Position numbers and translations under genes: made by a program. Shown piece by piece: positions 21,877 to 51,869 of a stretch of DNA of 64,000 nt. Each line of letters opens with the position of its first letter. The stretch's first letter is position 1. This stretch comes from an uncultured Saprospiraceae bacterium (GTDB lineage: Bacteria; Bacteroidota; Bacteroidia; Chitinophagales; Saprospiraceae), in assembly GCA_937923485.1 (NCBI GenBank), contig CALDUE010000011.1, positions 1 through 64,000 on the forward strand, given 5' to 3'. The notes beneath the pieces are model-generated. The model made no database searches. It worked only from the letters and a program-made list of their open reading frames with translations, and was not told the DNA's origin.

Positions 21877-24387
21877 ATGAAGCAATTACTCATCTGCTGC
21901 ATTTCGATCATTGCACTAGGCTTTGGATCGACGCTACATGCGCAAGGCTACCTCCGAAAGGCAGAAAAACAGTATGATCTCGGCGACTTCGCTGAGTCGA
22001 TCTCAGGCTTTGAGCGCTACGTAAGAAAAGATCCAAAGGCTACTAACATTGGTGCAAAGCTGGCCAATGCCTATCGGATGACCAATCAGTCGGCAGCTGC
22101 TGCAGCTCAGTATCAAGTTTTGGCGAAAGCTGAACCTAACAACCCTGGCTACGCATACCTGTCTGCACTTACCTTGATGGAAGACGGTCAGTACGGCGCC
22201 GCAGTTATCCAACTTTCAGAAGCAGCGATTCTTGGACATCCAGGGGTAGAAGCATTGGCAGAACGCCTCGCTTACGCTCAGGCACATGTCTCAGAACCGA
22301 GTTCATGGAGAATAAGCAACGAGTTCATCAACACTGCCGGAGACGATTACAGCGCCCAGCCATTTGGAGACCTCACCGTCTTTGCAAGTGATCGCGACGG
22401 AGAACCTTCCAAGCTGTTCTTAAGCAGTCGCGATGACAACAATTTTTTACGCATTCCTCGCCCCGTGCATAAGGTGCTTTCAGAGCAGGTAAGAGATGCA
22501 CCTGTGGCTTACAGCCCCAGTGGTGAATTGGTAGCCTTTACCAGAAACAACTTCAAACAAGGAGAGCGCTTCATTCCAGAAGCAGGTTGGGAATTAAGCC
22601 TTCTCCTTGGTATTTCCGATAAAGAAGGAGACTTTCAAGCAGGAAAACCTTTCGTTCATAACGGACCGGGTTTCAATACTGGATTCCCAGCATTTTCTCC
22701 ATCGGGAGATGCGCTATACTTTGCAAGTGATCGACCAGGAGGCTACGGAGGCTACGACCTTTACGTTTCAAAAAGAACCTCTAGTGGTTGGGGAGTCCCA
22801 ACAAATCTTGGTGACGTGGTGAATACACCAGGAAATGAAATTTCGCCATTCGCGGTTGGAAATTCAATCTACTTCTCAAGCGATTACCTCCCTGGTTATG
22901 GCGGAATGGACATTTACAGAGCCGACCTTGTGGGCAAAGCTGTTTCTACAGTGGTCAACATGGGCAACGGTGTCAATAGTCCAGCCGATGACGCTGGCTT
23001 CACGATGAGCGAAGATGGGCAGTGGTCTTACTTCCACAGTAATCGCGCAGGCGGCAAAGGCAACCTTGACTTGTATCGTGGTGCGCGCAACGGAAAGGCC
23101 GTAACGCTTGCTGTCGTTGATGGAAAAACAGGAACTCCAATTCCTAACGCAGTACTTGATTTCTCAAGTTGCGGTCAAGGAAATTTCTTAACTGGTGTAG
23201 ATGGAGAGTACACTTTCAGGGCAGTATCCACCCTAGATTGTCGCCCAACTGTTCAGAAGAGCGGATATAATGCGAAGGAATTTAGCATCCGTGCATCTTC
23301 GCTTAGTGAAAACCAACGCGTTGAAATAAAGCTGAATCCTGAAGATAAGATCAGCATTTATGAAGGCAAAGTACTCAATGCGCGCACAGGTGATGTAATA
23401 CCTCAAGTTACCGTCATTGCTCAACAGATCGACGGACCTTTTACGAGTCAAGCAACTACAAATGAAAGAGGTTGGTACGAGTTGAAGCTGGAAAGAGCAA
23501 GTGAGTACACAATCTCTTACAACAAGTCTGGGATGGCTGACATCGACCGCGAAGTGAGTACGTATGACTCAGATGGCGGTGGGATTCTCAGCAGCTTTGC
23601 AATGTTCCCTGACCAGTCGGTGGCTGCTACAGGAGGCCGCGAGATGACTCCTTTTAAAGGTTTTGATACGGCGCCGAGTGAATACGAGCCATCAACCAGC
23701 TCAAACACTGGTGCAACGGGCACAACTTATTCATCAACTCGTACAAGTTCAACTTCTGAATATAGAACGATTATCGGCTCAATTGAAACAGGCTTTGCCG
23801 TACAAGTTGCCGCTTTAGCTCAGACAGTAACCGACATCAGTGAGTATCAGCAGAAGCTAAGCGAGCTAGGTCAAGTGTATGGTAAGCGTGAAAACGGAGT
23901 ACTTCGTATTCGTATTGGACCTTTTTCTTCTAGGCAAGAGGCTTCAAGAGTGCTGCCACGCGCTAAGAACTTAGGTTTTTCTGATGCATATATCGCCAAA
24001 GAAGATGGTGGACCTGCAGTTGGTATAAACCGAGTTGAACGAGTTTCTACTCCTGCTCCACGTTCAGCGCCTGCTCCACGTCGCGTGTCGACTCCAGCGC
24101 CACAGACTGCTGTAGCGCCCGCTCCTGCTCCATCATCACCGTCAGCAGGTGCCTACTTGATTCGATTGGCAACTTATGGCAACTACAGCAATTTTGACGC
24201 AGCAAAAGTTGCGACCTTAGGGACTCTCACAACGCGTCAACGCGGGGAGTACACTGTTGTTTTGGTGCAAGGATTCGGCTCTGTAGAAGCAGCTCAAGCG
24301 AAAATTGCTGAAGCCAATGCCGCAGGATTCTCTGATGCCCACGTGGTGTACGAAGAAAGCGATGGTACACTAAAGAAGGTGCGCTAA
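21877..24387 (+). CDS. TPR + PD40-like + CarboxypepD_reg-like + two SPOR domains (ATG at 21877; ORF track starts at 21793 inside the terminator)
   Basis: Signal peptide MKQLLICCISIIALGFGSTLHAQ; LYFASDRPGGYGGYDLYVSKR; TGFAVQVAALAQ...RIRIGPFSSRQEA and GAYLIRLATYGNY...VQGFGSVEAAQ. Confidence 0.85.
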   Translation: MKQLLICCISIIALGFGSTLHAQGYLRKAEKQYDLGDFAESISGFERYVRKDPKATNIGAKLANAYRMTNQSAAAAAQYQVLAKAEPNNPGYAYLSALTLMEDGQYGAAVIQLSEAAILGHPGVEALAERLAYAQAHVSEPSSWRISNEFINTAGDDYSAQPFGDLTVFASDRDGEPSKLFLSSRDDNNFLRIPRPVHKVLSEQVRDAPVAYSPSGELVAFTRNNFKQGERFIPEAGWELSLLLGISDKEGDFQAGKPFVHNGPGFNTGFPAFSPSGDALYFASDRPGGYGGYDLYVSKRTSSGWGVPTNLGDVVNTPGNEISPFAVGNSIYFSSDYLPGYGGMDIYRADLVGKAVSTVVNMGNGVNSPADDAGFTMSEDGQWSYFHSNRAGGKGNLDLYRGARNGKAVTLAVVDGKTGTPIPNAVLDFSSCGQGNFLTGVDGEYTFRAVSTLDCRPTVQKSGYNAKEFSIRASSLSENQRVEIKLNPEDKISIYEGKVLNARTGDVIPQVTVIAQQIDGPFTSQATTNERGWYELKLERASEYTISYNKSGMADIDREVSTYDSDGGGILSSFAMFPDQSVAATGGREMTPFKGFDTAPSEYEPSTSSNTGATGTTYSSTRTSSTSEYRTIIGSIETGFAVQVAALAQTVTDISEYQQKLSELGQVYGKRENGVLRIRIGPFSSRQEASRVLPRAKNLGFSDAYIAKEDGGPAVGINRVERVSTPAPRSAPAPRRVSTPAPQTAVAPAPAPSSPSAGAYLIRLATYGNYSNFDAAKVATLGTLTTRQRGEYTVVLVQGFGSVEAAQAKIAEANAAGFSDAHVVYEESDGTLKKVR
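22117..22130 (-). repeat. Interspersed word GTTTTGGCGAAAGC, exact copy
   Basis: Exact 14-mer; read VLAKA in the SPOR gene. Confidence 0.95.
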
Positions 24388-41340: not shown

Positions 41341-44319
41341 TTAGTTGCCCTTGAGCTCTTTCAATCTTTTCTCTTCTTCTTGAATTGCACGTTTGAGTTT
41401 GGCCTCTTCTTGGCGAAGCTTTTCAATTTGCTTTTGGCGCATTCCAACGTCGTTGGTTAATTCATCGCGCTCTACTTTTTGCATGCTAAGCTGTTCTTCA
41501 TGTGCGGCTCTAGCCTTACGCGTCGCATCTATATAAGACTGCTGAGCAGCCTCAATTTCTGCTACTGCATTATCTCGTGCTTCTTTGATTGATTTTGCAG
41601 CTTTCTGTTGTTCTTCAGCAATTTGTTCTTGCTGTTTTATTCGCTCTGCGGCAAGTTCATCCCGCAAGGCTCTGCGTTCGTCTTCTACAGCTTTTCGTTC
41701 TGTTGCTAAGTCTTCTGCAAGAATTGCTTTTTGAGTTTTGCGTTGTTCAGCAAGGTCGTCTTCAAACTTCTTGTGCGCGATATTCATGTCGCGTTTTTCG
41801 GCGTCTTGCGTTTCTCGGAGAGCGACAATCTGCTCACTATGTTCTTGACGAATTGTAGAGATACTTCGCGCTGCTTTCTCTCGTTCTGTGGCAACATCGC
41901 CGGCGATTTCTTCACGAACCTTGGCGAGGTCGCGCATCAAAGCTTCTTGTTCGTCAATGGCCTCTTCTTGAAGTCGATTTAAGGTTTGAGCCTGTTTAAT
42001 CTCAGCTTTGCTAATTTCTTCACGGGCCTCCTTGCGAGCCAACGCTACTTCGCGATTGAGTGAGTCTCTGTACTCCGTGCTACGCTTAAATGCTTCATTT
42101 TGGAGCTCTCGATCTTTTTTGAGTTGGAATTCAAGAGCCTCTTTTTGAGCTTGATTACGTGCACGGGTCGAACTCATATCTTTCGATTCTGCATCGAGTG
42201 CAGCAAGTCTTCTTTCGTTTGCTTCAATGAGTTCTTTGTCCGCATTATCAGGGAGATTTTTCGCTTGAGTTGCGATTCGAGCACGTTGCGATTCAATTGC
42301 CTTGTCAAGACTATCAAGTCTACTTCTGCGCTGTGCCTCTTCTTTTTGAAGTACCGCATCAATTTTTTTGCGTTCTTCCTCGATCCGAGTAGCCAAAGCC
42401 TCACGCTGCGCTTTCCATTCTTGCGCTGCTGCGAGGTCTCTGGCTTCTTGTTCTTCTGCCAATGTTTTCTGACGTGCTTCAATAGCAGCCATTTCATCGG
42501 CGAGTTTGGATTGCATCTGTTCGCGACGCTCGTTTGCTGCTTTTGTTTGCTCTGCCACGCTAGCTGCCAGTTCTTGGCGGCGCGTATCTGCAGTAGATCG
42601 TGCAGCTGCAATAGCAGCAGCTTCCTCGGCTTGAACTTCGGCTATTCGTTGATCAGCGGCTTCGCGAGCAGCTTTGACATCTTGAGCCAATGCTATCCTC
42701 GCTTCTGCTCCCATTTCAGCGGCTTCTTGAGTTTTCTCAAGTTCCTCTGCTTTAGCCTTCGCAATGGCTTCTTGAGAGTTCGTCGTTGCGCTCACAGTTT
42801 GTTCTGCCAGAACTTGCTGCTGCGAGCGGGCGGCTTCACGAGCTGCTTCAAGTTCTTCTGCGTAGGCTTCACGCTGATTGACTAACTCTTCCTTTAGGCT
42901 TGCAATTTTGCGCTCAAAGGCAGATTCTTGTTCAGCGAGTTGTTCTGCTTGGAGGCGACGAGCTTCTGCCATTCTTACGGCTTGCGCTTCTTGTTCCCGA
43001 GCTACCTCTTCTCGCATTTCTGCGATTTTGGTTAGGCTAGCCTCCTTTGCTTTCAGGACTTCTTTCTGCGCTTCGGCGCGTGTTTGAGAAACGGTCGCTT
43101 GACTAGAATCTTGCGCATTCATTGCTGCTTTTCTTGCGGCTGCGATTTGATCCTCCAGGTCCTTACGAATCTCTATGATCTGTTGCTGGCTACTTTCTCG
43201 TGCACTAGCAACTTCATCGGCATATGCCGTCCTCGCCTCAGCAAATTTGGTCCGTTCCGCTGCTGCGGCAGCCGCGTTCTCTTTGCGTATTTGTGCTAGT
43301 TGAGAGGCGCTTTCAGTTTTGGCTTGTTCGATTGCGAGCAGTGCTTTTGCTCTCGCATCTGCGACTTCTTGCGCAGCGGCCTGTTGTTCTGAACTCACAT
43401 CTCCATCGATGGCCTGAATTTTCTGACCAGCACTAGCTTGAGCTTCGGTGATACGCTCAGTTGCTTTTTGCCTTGCTTCTACCACTTCGGCGGCTATGGC
43501 TTGCTCTTGCAGTGCAGCGGCCTCTCTGCTCGCTGAAAGGTCATCCGCGATATTGGCTTTTGCTCGATCTGCTTTTGCTTTTTCGAGCGCTATTTCTTCA
43601 AGAAGGTCTTTTTTGAGTTGAGCGAGCTGAGCTCTAAGGTCTACTATTTCCTGTTTGGCTGCATCTTGCTCAGCTTTGTCTCTTTCCGATAGTGTTGTTG
43701 TTCCTGGTTTTGTCGAAAGACCACTTTCTCTAGTTGATCTCACATCTGGTGCCCGAGTTCTTCCAACGGCAGGGATTGAAATTCTAACCGCGGCTATATC
43801 TGGAATTAGGGCAGGATTGATTTCTTTGACAAAGCATTGCGCCAATTGTCGCAGCTCAGCTTGTCGACTTGCAGGTAGGGTAAACCTTCGTCCTTGGCTT
43901 TTGACGTTATTTTTAAGGGTGACTACAGCGATGTCATTTGCGGCGAGCCAATTTGCAGTTTCTACATCTAGTTGGAGCTCATTGACAAATTCTGGAGCAC
44001 CAGAGGAACTAACCGTTTTGACCGATCCGACGAACCTGTAAGACCTTAACTGTCCTGACTTAGGGATGAAAATCAGCTCGTCGTCCTTATTCGGTTTTTC
44101 ACCACCACGACTTTCAAAAACGGCCCGAATCCCTTTGCCTCCTGCTTCGAAATGAATAGAGTAGGCATAATTACCGCGCACCACGAGCTTCTGAGACTCG
44201 GTTACGATTCTTTGGCCGGTAGATAATGTGACATTTTCAGTCAGCCGGCTCGCACACTGTGCGGTTATGCTTTCGCCAAAACATAAAATGGCAATGCTCA
44301 GTATTAGTAGCCTAATCAT
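41341..44319 (-). CDS. Secreted long coiled-coil protein, 992 aa
   Basis: Signal peptide MIRLLILSIAILCFGESITAQ; about 170-aa globular N-terminus; then about 780 aa of A/E/K/R/Q-rich heptad-like sequence. Confidence 0.75.
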   Translation of the reverse strand: MIRLLILSIAILCFGESITAQCASRLTENVTLSTGQRIVTESQKLVVRGNYAYSIHFEAGGKGIRAVFESRGGEKPNKDDELIFIPKSGQLRSYRFVGSVKTVSSSGAPEFVNELQLDVETANWLAANDIAVVTLKNNVKSQGRRFTLPASRQAELRQLAQCFVKEINPALIPDIAAVRISIPAVGRTRAPDVRSTRESGLSTKPGTTTLSERDKAEQDAAKQEIVDLRAQLAQLKKDLLEEIALEKAKADRAKANIADDLSASREAAALQEQAIAAEVVEARQKATERITEAQASAGQKIQAIDGDVSSEQQAAAQEVADARAKALLAIEQAKTESASQLAQIRKENAAAAAAERTKFAEARTAYADEVASARESSQQQIIEIRKDLEDQIAAARKAAMNAQDSSQATVSQTRAEAQKEVLKAKEASLTKIAEMREEVAREQEAQAVRMAEARRLQAEQLAEQESAFERKIASLKEELVNQREAYAEELEAAREAARSQQQVLAEQTVSATTNSQEAIAKAKAEELEKTQEAAEMGAEARIALAQDVKAAREAADQRIAEVQAEEAAAIAAARSTADTRRQELAASVAEQTKAANERREQMQSKLADEMAAIEARQKTLAEEQEARDLAAAQEWKAQREALATRIEEERKKIDAVLQKEEAQRRSRLDSLDKAIESQRARIATQAKNLPDNADKELIEANERRLAALDAESKDMSSTRARNQAQKEALEFQLKKDRELQNEAFKRSTEYRDSLNREVALARKEAREEISKAEIKQAQTLNRLQEEAIDEQEALMRDLAKVREEIAGDVATEREKAARSISTIRQEHSEQIVALRETQDAEKRDMNIAHKKFEDDLAEQRKTQKAILAEDLATERKAVEDERRALRDELAAERIKQQEQIAEEQQKAAKSIKEARDNAVAEIEAAQQSYIDATRKARAAHEEQLSMQKVERDELTNDVGMRQKQIEKLRQEEAKLKRAIQEEEKRLKELKGN
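44269..44282 (+). repeat. Interspersed word GCTTTCGCCAAAAC, exact copy
   Basis: Exact 14-mer; read CFGES in the signal peptide of the coiled-coil protein. Confidence 0.95.
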
Positions 44320-48942: not shown

Positions 48943-51648
48943 TTACTTCTTCTTCGCTGCTGGCTTGCGCTTAGCAGCTGTCTTCTTCGCCGCTGGCTTA
49001 GCCTTAGCAGTTGTCTTCTTAGCTGCTGGTTTAGCTTTTGCAGCTGTCTTCTTAGCTGCTGGTTTAGCTTTTGCGGCTGTCTTGCGAGTAGCGGTCTTAG
49101 CTTTTGCAGCAGGCTTCTTCTTAGCAGCTGCTTTGCGAGCACTAGGCTTCGCTTTAGCGGTAGTTTTAACTGCGCGAGTGCTAGACTTGGACATGTACTT
49201 CCCAGCAGCTTCTTTCACTTTTGTGCCGTTGGTATTACGTGCTCCTGACTCATCAACGAGTTGCTCAAGAGCGTCATCGTTCATTTTGATGATATCAGCA
49301 TAGGTTTTCACACCTCGCGTACGGAACATTTGTTGAGCCTTTGGTCCGATACCCTTGATACGAGTCAAGTCGTCACCGTCAGCAGGTGCAGTTGCAGCTT
49401 TCGCCTTCTTAGCAGGAGCTCCAGCAGGAGTTGAATACTTAGAAGGGTCAATTAGGTGCCAGTCGCCTTTTGCAGCTTGAGCAGCAACATTTTTCCAGTC
49501 ACGAACATTTGCTTTAGCAACACGGTATCCAACTTCGTCACGAATCGCTTCAAGTGAAGAAATGGTAGCTTTTGCTAGTTGCGCATATGTCTTTACGCCA
49601 GCAGCAAACAGCTTCTCTTGCACTTTAGCTCCAATTCCTGGAAGGTCAGTTAGCGTTTCAGCTCCTTCAGGTAAAGCAGTTTTAGCTTTCGCCTTACGCT
49701 TCTTTCCTGATTTCGCTTTTTTCGCCTTCTTCGGTACTGGTGGGTACTCTTCGTGCTTGCCGTCTTTAGCAAGAGCAGCTACAGTCTTCCAGTAGTCAAC
49801 AGCGAATCCTTTGTACTTAGGACCAGAAGCTTCTGAAACAACAACAAGTTTCTCTAAAGAAGCATTGGCTAACTGATTAAAAGTTTTGATGCCATTTGCA
49901 TTCATTGCCTCAACAACTTTAGCGCCTACACTAGGTAGAGAGATAAGGTCATTGTTGTTTTTAGGCGCTGGAGCTGGGCGTGAGGTACGCTTAGCTCGCT
50001 TGGCACCTTTAACTTTCTTTGGCTTAGGAGCAGTAGGTGGCTTAACTGGAATTTTATCGAAGTCTCCTGCATGTGCATGAGCAGCTGATTGTTTCCAGAA
50101 GTTAATGTCAAAACGTGCGAAACGACGTCCAGCATTTTCTTTAATCGCAGTGAGAATATCATCCTTCGCGCGAGCGAGTTGAGAGAAGGTACTGATACCT
50201 TTTTCGTTCATCGCAGTCTTGACGCTTGGTCCAACACCAGGCAGTACATCAAGGTCCTTATTAGTAGCTTTCTGAAGACGAGCTATATGACGCTCTGTTG
50301 CTGAAAGTTTTGATGTCGGAGCAGCTGCCTGCTTGTCGACCTTTACAGCCTTATTCAATTTCCCAAATCGTCCTTCGGCAGCATACTTAGCTTGACGCTG
50401 GAGAAAAGCGATATTGATATTCTTGTATTTTCCTTTGGTTTGGCTTCTAGCATTTTCCAAAACATCCTTATCAGCTGATGCTACATCGGAGAATGTATTG
50501 ATGTTTGCTTTGTGAAGAGCCGCGACGAGTTGCGCGCCGACACCAGGTAATACATGAAGATCATTAGGATTAATGACCTTTTCTTTCTTAGTTCTTCCTT
50601 TTTTAACTTTTGCCTTCGGCATCGGCTTTGGAGGAGTCGGCATTGATTTCGCACCTGCGAGCTTTTTCTCTCCGACTTTGCGGAAGTAGCTCATGTCGAA
50701 ATTAACGAAAGGTCGACCACCTTCAGTACGAAGTTTCTCGAGCTTCTCATCAGTTAATGCAGCAAGATCCTTGAAGGTCTTAATTCCGTTAGCAATCATT
50801 GCATTCAACATCTGCGGTCCTACTTTAGGAACAGAGTTGAGATCATCGTCTGCTAGTGCACTGAGGTCAATTTTAGCGTCCTTCTTGCTCGTAACTTTTA
50901 CGGCTTTCGGTGGAGCTCCGATCTTGTCCCATTCGCCAGCAACAGCATGAGCAGCAGCAGCACGCCAGAAGGTAGGATCGAAATTCTTGAAACGACGTCC
51001 AGCATTTGCGCGAACTTTTTCAAGAGCTTTATCTGATGCTTTAGAAAGCGCAGCAAAAGTTTTAATTCCAGCGTCATGAAGACCATCAACTACACTTTTA
51101 CCAACGAGTGGTAGGCGATGAAGATCTCCAGGGCCAATTGGCTTACGAGGGCGACCGCCACCTTTTCCGCCACGCTTGCGCGTAGGTGTGATGAAACTTA
51201 GTCGTGGTTGAATCCGCTTAGCTCCAAGGCTGTGGTCAGGGAAATATTTTTTTGCTTCTTCGGTACTACCCACTGGAAGAAATTCCTCTTCAACAATAAG
51301 ACCTTTATCGTCCCAGCGACGAGCAACAAGTAATAACATCTTGAAACGCTCATCGTTTGAAGGATCGCCTTCGATAGAGAATAAAGATACACTCGTGTTA
51401 TCTTCTTCGATAGCGCGACTCGCGAGTACCTCAACACTACCTTTTGATCCAATACGCTCCTCGAGGGCTGCAAGATCTTGGTGGTACTGTTTGCCCTTTT
51501 GGTTAAAAAGGTTTAATGTGTGAATACGCGCAGACTTATGATGGAAGTCTTTTGCCGCGTCTACAAACTTACGCTTTGCAAGTTTATTGTCTATTTTTTC
51601 TAGACTCGTGGTTACATTCATGTTCGAATGGTGCTTAGTTAGTTTCAA
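48943..51648 (-). CDS. Seven-repeat helix-hairpin-helix-like protein with histone-H1-like Lys/Ala-rich C-terminal tail (start may be MNVTTS)
   Basis: Repeats of DLxxLPGVGxxxxxAxxxxGIKTFxxLAxAxxxxL...FxxxFWxxxA; tail AKTATRKTAAKAKPAAKKTAAKAKPAAKKTTAKAKPAAKKTAAKRKPAAKKK. Confidence 0.85.
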   Translation of the reverse strand: MKLTKHHSNMNVTTSLEKIDNKLAKRKFVDAAKDFHHKSARIHTLNLFNQKGKQYHQDLAALEERIGSKGSVEVLASRAIEEDNTSVSLFSIEGDPSNDERFKMLLLVARRWDDKGLIVEEEFLPVGSTEEAKKYFPDHSLGAKRIQPRLSFITPTRKRGGKGGGRPRKPIGPGDLHRLPLVGKSVVDGLHDAGIKTFAALSKASDKALEKVRANAGRRFKNFDPTFWRAAAAHAVAGEWDKIGAPPKAVKVTSKKDAKIDLSALADDDLNSVPKVGPQMLNAMIANGIKTFKDLAALTDEKLEKLRTEGGRPFVNFDMSYFRKVGEKKLAGAKSMPTPPKPMPKAKVKKGRTKKEKVINPNDLHVLPGVGAQLVAALHKANINTFSDVASADKDVLENARSQTKGKYKNINIAFLQRQAKYAAEGRFGKLNKAVKVDKQAAAPTSKLSATERHIARLQKATNKDLDVLPGVGPSVKTAMNEKGISTFSQLARAKDDILTAIKENAGRRFARFDINFWKQSAAHAHAGDFDKIPVKPPTAPKPKKVKGAKRAKRTSRPAPAPKNNNDLISLPSVGAKVVEAMNANGIKTFNQLANASLEKLVVVSEASGPKYKGFAVDYWKTVAALAKDGKHEEYPPVPKKAKKAKSGKKRKAKAKTALPEGAETLTDLPGIGAKVQEKLFAAGVKTYAQLAKATISSLEAIRDEVGYRVAKANVRDWKNVAAQAAKGDWHLIDPSKYSTPAGAPAKKAKAATAPADGDDLTRIKGIGPKAQQMFRTRGVKTYADIIKMNDDALEQLVDESGARNTNGTKVKEAAGKYMSKSSTRAVKTTAKAKPSARKAAAKKKPAAKAKTATRKTAAKAKPAAKKTAAKAKPAAKKTTAKAKPAAKKTAAKRKPAAKKK

Positions 51649-51668: not shown

Positions 51669-51676
51669 CAAAATTA
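51669..51676 (-). promoter_or_regulatory. Putative -7 element TAATTTTG for the HhH-repeat gene
   Basis: Plus-strand caaaatta, just upstream of the ORF. Confidence 0.35.
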
Positions 51677-51869
51677 ACGGTATATTTCTTTTATGCAAAC
51701 TATTGTTAAGATTAATATTCAATTCACTAGCTTTCTTTTTCCAGCCAATATTTAATTGATACTACGGGACAAATCCAACTAGGGTTGCGTACAGAGATTG
51801 TGAACGTTTGATCATTTCTTGGCTTAATGATGTTACATTCGCCGAACGTTCTAACCCTAAAACGAAAAC

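Follow-up and report, generated by a model that had tools for sequence, protein, structure and literature searches.

A seven-unit helix-hairpin-helix protein with a histone-H1-like tail in an uncultured Saprospiraceae bacterium: a putative multivalent nucleic-acid-binding protein

The window analyzed here (i.e., the whole 64,000-nucleotide stretch of a contig from an uncultured Saprospiraceae bacterium) carries on its minus strand an open reading frame (48943-51648) which, read from a TTG, encodes 901 aa. This ORF, noted in the original prediction, exists as described, but its start required correction. Since the ortholog in the second genome of the genus starts at an ATG nine codons into the window ORF and a conserved promoter-like element is located 78-48 nt upstream of this codon, the true start is most likely the ATG at 51621, giving an 892-aa protein (96 kDa) that is very basic, with a pI of 10.2 (Table 1). 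The element, TTTG-N19-TAnnTTTG, which presumably represents the house-keeping sigma consensus of Bacteroidota, is matched exactly in the window and at locus L007, at equal distance to the ATG, and the surrounding sequences have diverged. The gene stands alone, with coaD convergent and an aldehyde-dehydrogenase gene, which we read as 1-pyrroline-5-carboxylate dehydrogenase-like, divergent, and this order is kept in the sister genome. When the contigs of the genomes were scanned for the seven-unit protein, designated (HhH)7, the sister MAG was the only match, and a plasmid search with the protein gave no match. Elsewhere in the window, the extreme AT skew (-0.37) at 42-44 kb is accounted for by a minus-strand gene at 41341-44319, the 992-aa product of which starts like a signal peptide and contains a long coiled coil rich in Glu, Ala and Lys.

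Table 1. Features of the (HhH)7 gene and its upstream region in the window
Feature	Coordinates	Strand	Description
CDS of (HhH)7 protein	48943..51621	-	892 aa; start ATG 51621 (most likely), stop 48943-48945
Promoter-like TTTG-N19-TAnnTTTG	51669..51699	-	78-48 nt upstream of ATG
N-terminal head, probably SnoaL/NTF2-like	51232..51621	-	aa 1-130; near-neutral
Basic linker	51127..51231	-	aa 131-165; net +10; ortholog 100% identical
HhH unit R1	50920..51126	-	aa 166-234; LPLVG hairpin
HhH unit R2	50653..50844	-	aa 260-323; VPKVG hairpin
HhH unit R3	50359..50562	-	aa 354-421; LPGVG hairpin
HhH unit R4	50050..50256	-	aa 456-524; LPGVG hairpin; predicted all-helical, pLDDT 87
HhH unit R5	49747..49950	-	aa 558-625; LPSVG hairpin
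HhH unit R6	49450..49653	-	aa 657-724; LPGIG hairpin
HhH unit R7	49186..49371	-	aa 751-812; IKGIGPK hairpin; second half shortened
H1-like K/A/P tail	48946..49185	-	aa 813-892; net +31

The original prediction of seven helix-hairpin-helix (HhH)-like repeats on Lys/Pro-rich linkers, ending in a histone-H1-like tail, was borne out in all of these parts. Pfam HHH_5 was found in seven stretches (E 5.5e-39; 132.9 bits vs a cut-off of 27), and an HMM of the family tail domain found all seven units (i-E 3e-10 to 1e-19), covering R2 and R7 over their first ~50 positions only. The units are spaced 94-102 aa apart, the linkers between them are rich in Lys and Pro (net charge +2 to +11), and the 80-aa tail contains 31 K/R and no D/E. 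The seven units are unequal, yet recognizable; the GhG hairpin (h-x-G-h-G) is found in R3, R4, R6 and R7, R1, R2 and R5 are without its first Gly (L, K and S, respectively, instead), and R7 is short. Compared with solved structures, the unit profile matched residues 99-131 of DNA polymerase beta (E about 1e-4), which we take to be the second HhH of this enzyme, contacting DNA, and it also matched the HhH domains of RadA and REV1. Structure prediction, which had been proposed as a check of the HhH fold, gave for R4 an AlphaFold2 model that contains helices only; its structural neighbours were RadA N-terminal domains (the best ones; prob 0.96-0.99, E 0.05-0.2), Y-family polymerases, NusA AR2 and the RNA polymerase alpha-CTD, all at E >= 0.05, and no match in this fold search reached E 0.001.

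Scans of the protein with Pfam and NCBIfam recognized HhH parts only and no nuclease, ligase, helicase or polymerase catalytic domain, and a catalytic role for the HhH part was therefore rejected. The same result argues against an accessory factor of DNA repair or recombination, in which the HhH units would recognize nicks, flaps or junctions; while the HhH relatives of the units are repair and recombination proteins, the neighbouring genes are coaD and the 1-pyrroline-5-carboxylate dehydrogenase-like gene, with no repair genes adjacent, and such a role is considered very unlikely.

The (HhH)7 protein and its ortholog in the second genome of the genus are 90% identical, with a Ka of 0.06 vs a Ks of about 1.15 (saturated). 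Ka/Ks is about 0.04 in the HhH units, which are the most constrained part, 0.07 in the linkers and 0.10 in the tail. Judged from the close ortholog, a Ka far below Ks and the conserved promoter, the gene is real and under purifying selection. The tail is encoded by 33-bp tandem repeats and is longer in the ortholog, and the basic linkers are kept there. By comparison, the units themselves share 17-44% pairwise identity, which is far beyond chance, and every unit has a conserved counterpart in the ortholog; an artefact at the DNA level was thus rejected as the source of the repeat. The units were placed in a tree together with 42 tails taken from other proteins. In this tree, built from a short alignment and with many forks unresolved, R1-R6 from both species formed one clade (support 96), and a common origin of all seven units was not rejected (p-AU 0.53). 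These results suggest that the array most likely grew through within-gene tandem duplication, predating the split of the two species.

The N-terminal part, of which ~160 aa had been described as resembling nothing recognizable, is not an orphan. The head alone showed full-length similarity to stand-alone proteins of ~116 aa in 13 other Saprospiraceae genomes (E to 1.5e-7), although no stand-alone copy was found in its own genome, the assembly of which is 85% complete. A search of the head alone against Pfam gave no match to E 10, and the family scan gave none for the window domain either; SnoaL_5 was matched weakly by 8 of the 15 aligned members of the head family (best E 0.0016), and two members tested singly scored below the SnoaL_5 cut-off. 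A model of the head, of low confidence (pLDDT 57), has the order HHHEEEE, and Foldseek with this model returned mostly SnoaL, ketosteroid-isomerase (KSI) and VirB8 folds (E 0.007-0.1). A sequence search of the PDB with the SnoaL-family profile gave only an insignificant match (E 0.18). Moreover, in three other genera, fusion proteins join a SnoaL-like head to one or two HhH units, in many cases with a K/A/P linker in between. Taking into consideration the stand-alone relatives, the weak SnoaL_5 matches, the folds returned by Foldseek and the related SnoaL-HhH fusions, the head is probably a SnoaL/NTF2-like domain. Another Saprospiraceae protein, L137 (G262; 1139 aa), has two SnoaL-like domains at its start, with acidic and repeated segments after them, and is without HhH.

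The HhH unit is not specific to this gene. The unit profile matched 113 of 119 Saprospiraceae genomes, with up to 18 matches per genome, and the tail profile matched 22 of 242 Bacteroidota sampled from outside Saprospiraceae; these fractions were obtained with different profiles and thresholds and are thus only roughly comparable. Among 93 HhH ORFs read, which were drawn from the best matches and do not represent a census, the HhH domain was nearly always located at the C-terminal end of the protein. Pfam-confirmed partners include the ribosomal proteins L27 (the largest partner class in the sample; e.g., L051), S1 (L031), S6 (L062) and S16 (L069), as well as glutamine synthetase (L047), NrfD (L042), an AMPK-type glycogen-binding domain (L049) and a CO-dehydrogenase flavoprotein (L093). 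In the genome studied here, the domain is found on S6, S16 and long coiled-coil proteins. Single tails are joined to their partners via flexible Ala/Pro/Glu or Lys-rich linkers, have a conserved end (...LQ.EL.GG[KR]) and are strongly conserved outside the hairpin (TW..Q..A..G.W..L..LQ..L.GG). All seven window units are without E12, a near-invariant acidic residue next to the tail hairpin, and have linkers in place of LQ..L.GG; their mean charge over 69 aa is +3.1 vs +0.1 in related single tails (p 0.04, a weak test). The window units derive from a mobile tail domain that is usually single and C-terminal on unrelated proteins. The original picture of a lone nucleoid protein did not include this distribution, and the finding that HhH forms the tail of so many unrelated proteins across the family is more surprising than the (HhH)7 protein itself. 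A literature search combining HhH with Saprospiraceae, L21, NuoE and Bacteroidota nucleoid proteins found nothing.

Arrays elsewhere in Saprospiraceae have two to four units, with a maximum of four among the 93 ORFs, and seven units with an H1-like tail were seen only in this genus, among the matches listed. Examples are an L27 with three units (L029, G006), a coiled-coil protein with three (L035, G052) and a membrane-anchored coiled-coil protein with four (L034, G100). Five other HhH-tailed proteins (L138 of G048, L033, L036, L041 and L100) carry very long PVEVIKEVEVIKEV-type repeats and could form an elongated fibre; L138 combines these repeats with a SnoaL head and two HhH units. HU-like N-termini in some coiled-coil HhH proteins (e.g., L091) were an impression only, to which Pfam gave no support.

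The presence of the tail on ribosomal and metabolic proteins gives rise to readings in which the ligand is protein or RNA. In the main rival explanation, the HhH domain serves in Saprospiraceae as a general tag for protein interaction or condensate targeting, and the seven-unit protein would act as a hub, either gathering HhH-tailed proteins or competing with them for a common receptor. Such a protein scaffold would explain why the domain ends proteins as unrelated as L27, S1, S6, S16, GlnA, NrfD, glycogen-binding proteins and flavoprotein subunits and why the tails are so conserved outside the hairpin, and an equivalent domain is found on RC protein-O, NuoE and ATP synthase subunit E in Dinoroseobacter shibae and its relatives (PMC12079452). 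However, the window units have lost the most conserved non-core parts of the tail (E12 and LQ..L.GG), and they have gained charge and adjoin an H1-like tail, so that this explanation, although the foremost alternative, is considered rather unlikely. Association with RNA or the ribosome, in which the units would bind rRNA or mRNA, as may the tails on L27, S1, S6 and S16, and the protein would have a role in ribosome clustering or hibernation, is slightly less probable still. L27, S16, S1 and S6 are among the tail partners, with L27 as the largest class, and tailed S6 and S16 occur in the same genome as the (HhH)7 gene; HhH domains and polybasic tails also discriminate poorly between DNA and RNA. 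On the other hand, the sampled tails occur on non-ribosomal proteins too, and among solved structures, the HhH domains most closely related to the units belong mostly to DNA enzymes. A broader version, in which HhH is a general cytoplasmic address tag, with tails that tether proteins to the nucleoid or to each other and the seven-unit protein as their multivalent organizer, could also be envisaged, but we regard it as improbable.

The original prediction also proposed the (HhH)7 protein as a candidate for binding an iterated word. This word, GTTTTGGCGRAAGC, occurs in 618 exact copies in the genome studied here and 650 in the sister genome, equally on both strands, and in at most 39 copies in each of 294 other genomes of the family, with control counts near zero; a few other genera have raised counts (10-39). 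The window contains 39 sites with at most two mismatches (e.g., at 22117, 25092 and 57064). In appearance, it resembles iterated words of the uptake-signal or HIP1 type. Specific binding of GTTTTGGCGRAAGC by the (HhH)7 protein, which would organize the chromosome through hundreds of sites, could be suggested by the high counts in precisely the two genomes with the seven-unit gene. Both traits are, however, confined to one genus and effectively represent one evolutionary event, and their co-occurrence is therefore no evidence of binding. Moreover, HhH units are typically non-specific, no copy of the word lies inside the gene or its promoter, and the word is also present, in low numbers, in genera without the seven-unit gene. 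Specific recognition of the word is thus regarded as highly improbable.

Taken together, the features of the (HhH)7 protein point to a multivalent nucleic-acid binder, most likely a DNA-bridging or DNA-tethering protein of the nucleoid type, a reading to which we give about an even chance. Each of the seven HhH beads on flexible basic linkers would contact the DNA phosphate backbone weakly and without sequence specificity, the KPAA-type tail would contribute electrostatic neutralization, and the SnoaL/NTF2-like head may dimerize or carry cargo. We infer DNA as the ligand, together with non-specificity, dimerization and bridging; one complex could then bridge DNA segments or tie the partner of the head to the nucleoid. 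The principle would be avidity, combining an action like that of the HhH array of Topoisomerase V with one like that of the KPAA tails of AlgP and PhaF, and these two precedents (PMC9489208; PMC9239181) add to the support for this reading. Within the protein, support comes from the seven HHH_5 stretches, the matches to DNA polymerase beta, RadA and REV1, the more basic units and the tail with a net charge of +31, as well as the R4 model, with RadA N-terminal domains and Y-family polymerases among its neighbours (E >= 0.05), the basic linkers retained in the ortholog (completely at aa 131-165) and the loss of E12. The reading is weakened by the absence of the first GhG glycine in R1, R2 and R5 and of a fold match to E 0.001. 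In addition, since the parent tail is found on ribosomal and metabolic proteins, the ancestral ligand may not be DNA, and since the gene was restricted to one genus in the sample, the protein is no core nucleoid component of Saprospiraceae. If DNA bridging is true, a protein that joins seven HhH units to an H1-like tail would be unusual among nucleoid architects and would provide a testable model for avidity-based, sequence-non-specific DNA bridging. Identification of the ligand of the mobile HhH domain would explain many proteins together.

Several known systems share parts of this architecture. In NCBIfam, a domain homologous to the window units ends NuoE, L21, S2 and a phasin, in alphaproteobacterial models that include PRK12278, PRK12373 and PRK12311, and the window protein matched NF008916 with an E of 3.4e-28. 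The tail of the RC protein-O/NuoE/L21 type is homologous across the full unit of ~80 aa, beyond the hairpin (8YY9 chain O residues 159-231, E 1.2e-6), but is present as one unit at the extreme C-terminus, whereas in the window protein all seven units are internal and precede a basic tail of 80 aa; the function of this C-terminal domain in D. shibae and its relatives was called obscure (PMC12079452). Saprospiraceae tails carry E-G-[IV]-G-P-K and LQ..L.GG, and the window units are more basic and without both signatures. The SnoaL-HhH fusions of other Saprospiraceae (e.g., L109-L113, L138 and L143) have a SnoaL-like head, often a K/A/P linker, and HhH, but only one or two units, which no H1-like tail follows. 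Topoisomerase V of Methanopyrus, in which tandem (HhH)2 domains wrap DNA (PMC9489208), likewise has a long tandem HhH array on one chain, although its domains are packed (HhH)2 pairs and those of the window protein are single-HhH-type units on long basic linkers; the Pfam and NCBIfam scans found no topoisomerase IC catalytic or AP lyase domain in the window protein. AlgP and PhaF, the KPAA tails of which bind DNA and position granules, share with it C-terminal K/A/P repeats, a strong positive charge and a distinct folded head (PMC9239181), but the head of the window protein is probably SnoaL-like and seven HhH units lie between head and tail. The (HhH)7 protein belongs to a known fold class, and its arrangement is new, with seven HhH units between a probable SnoaL-type head and an H1-like tail.
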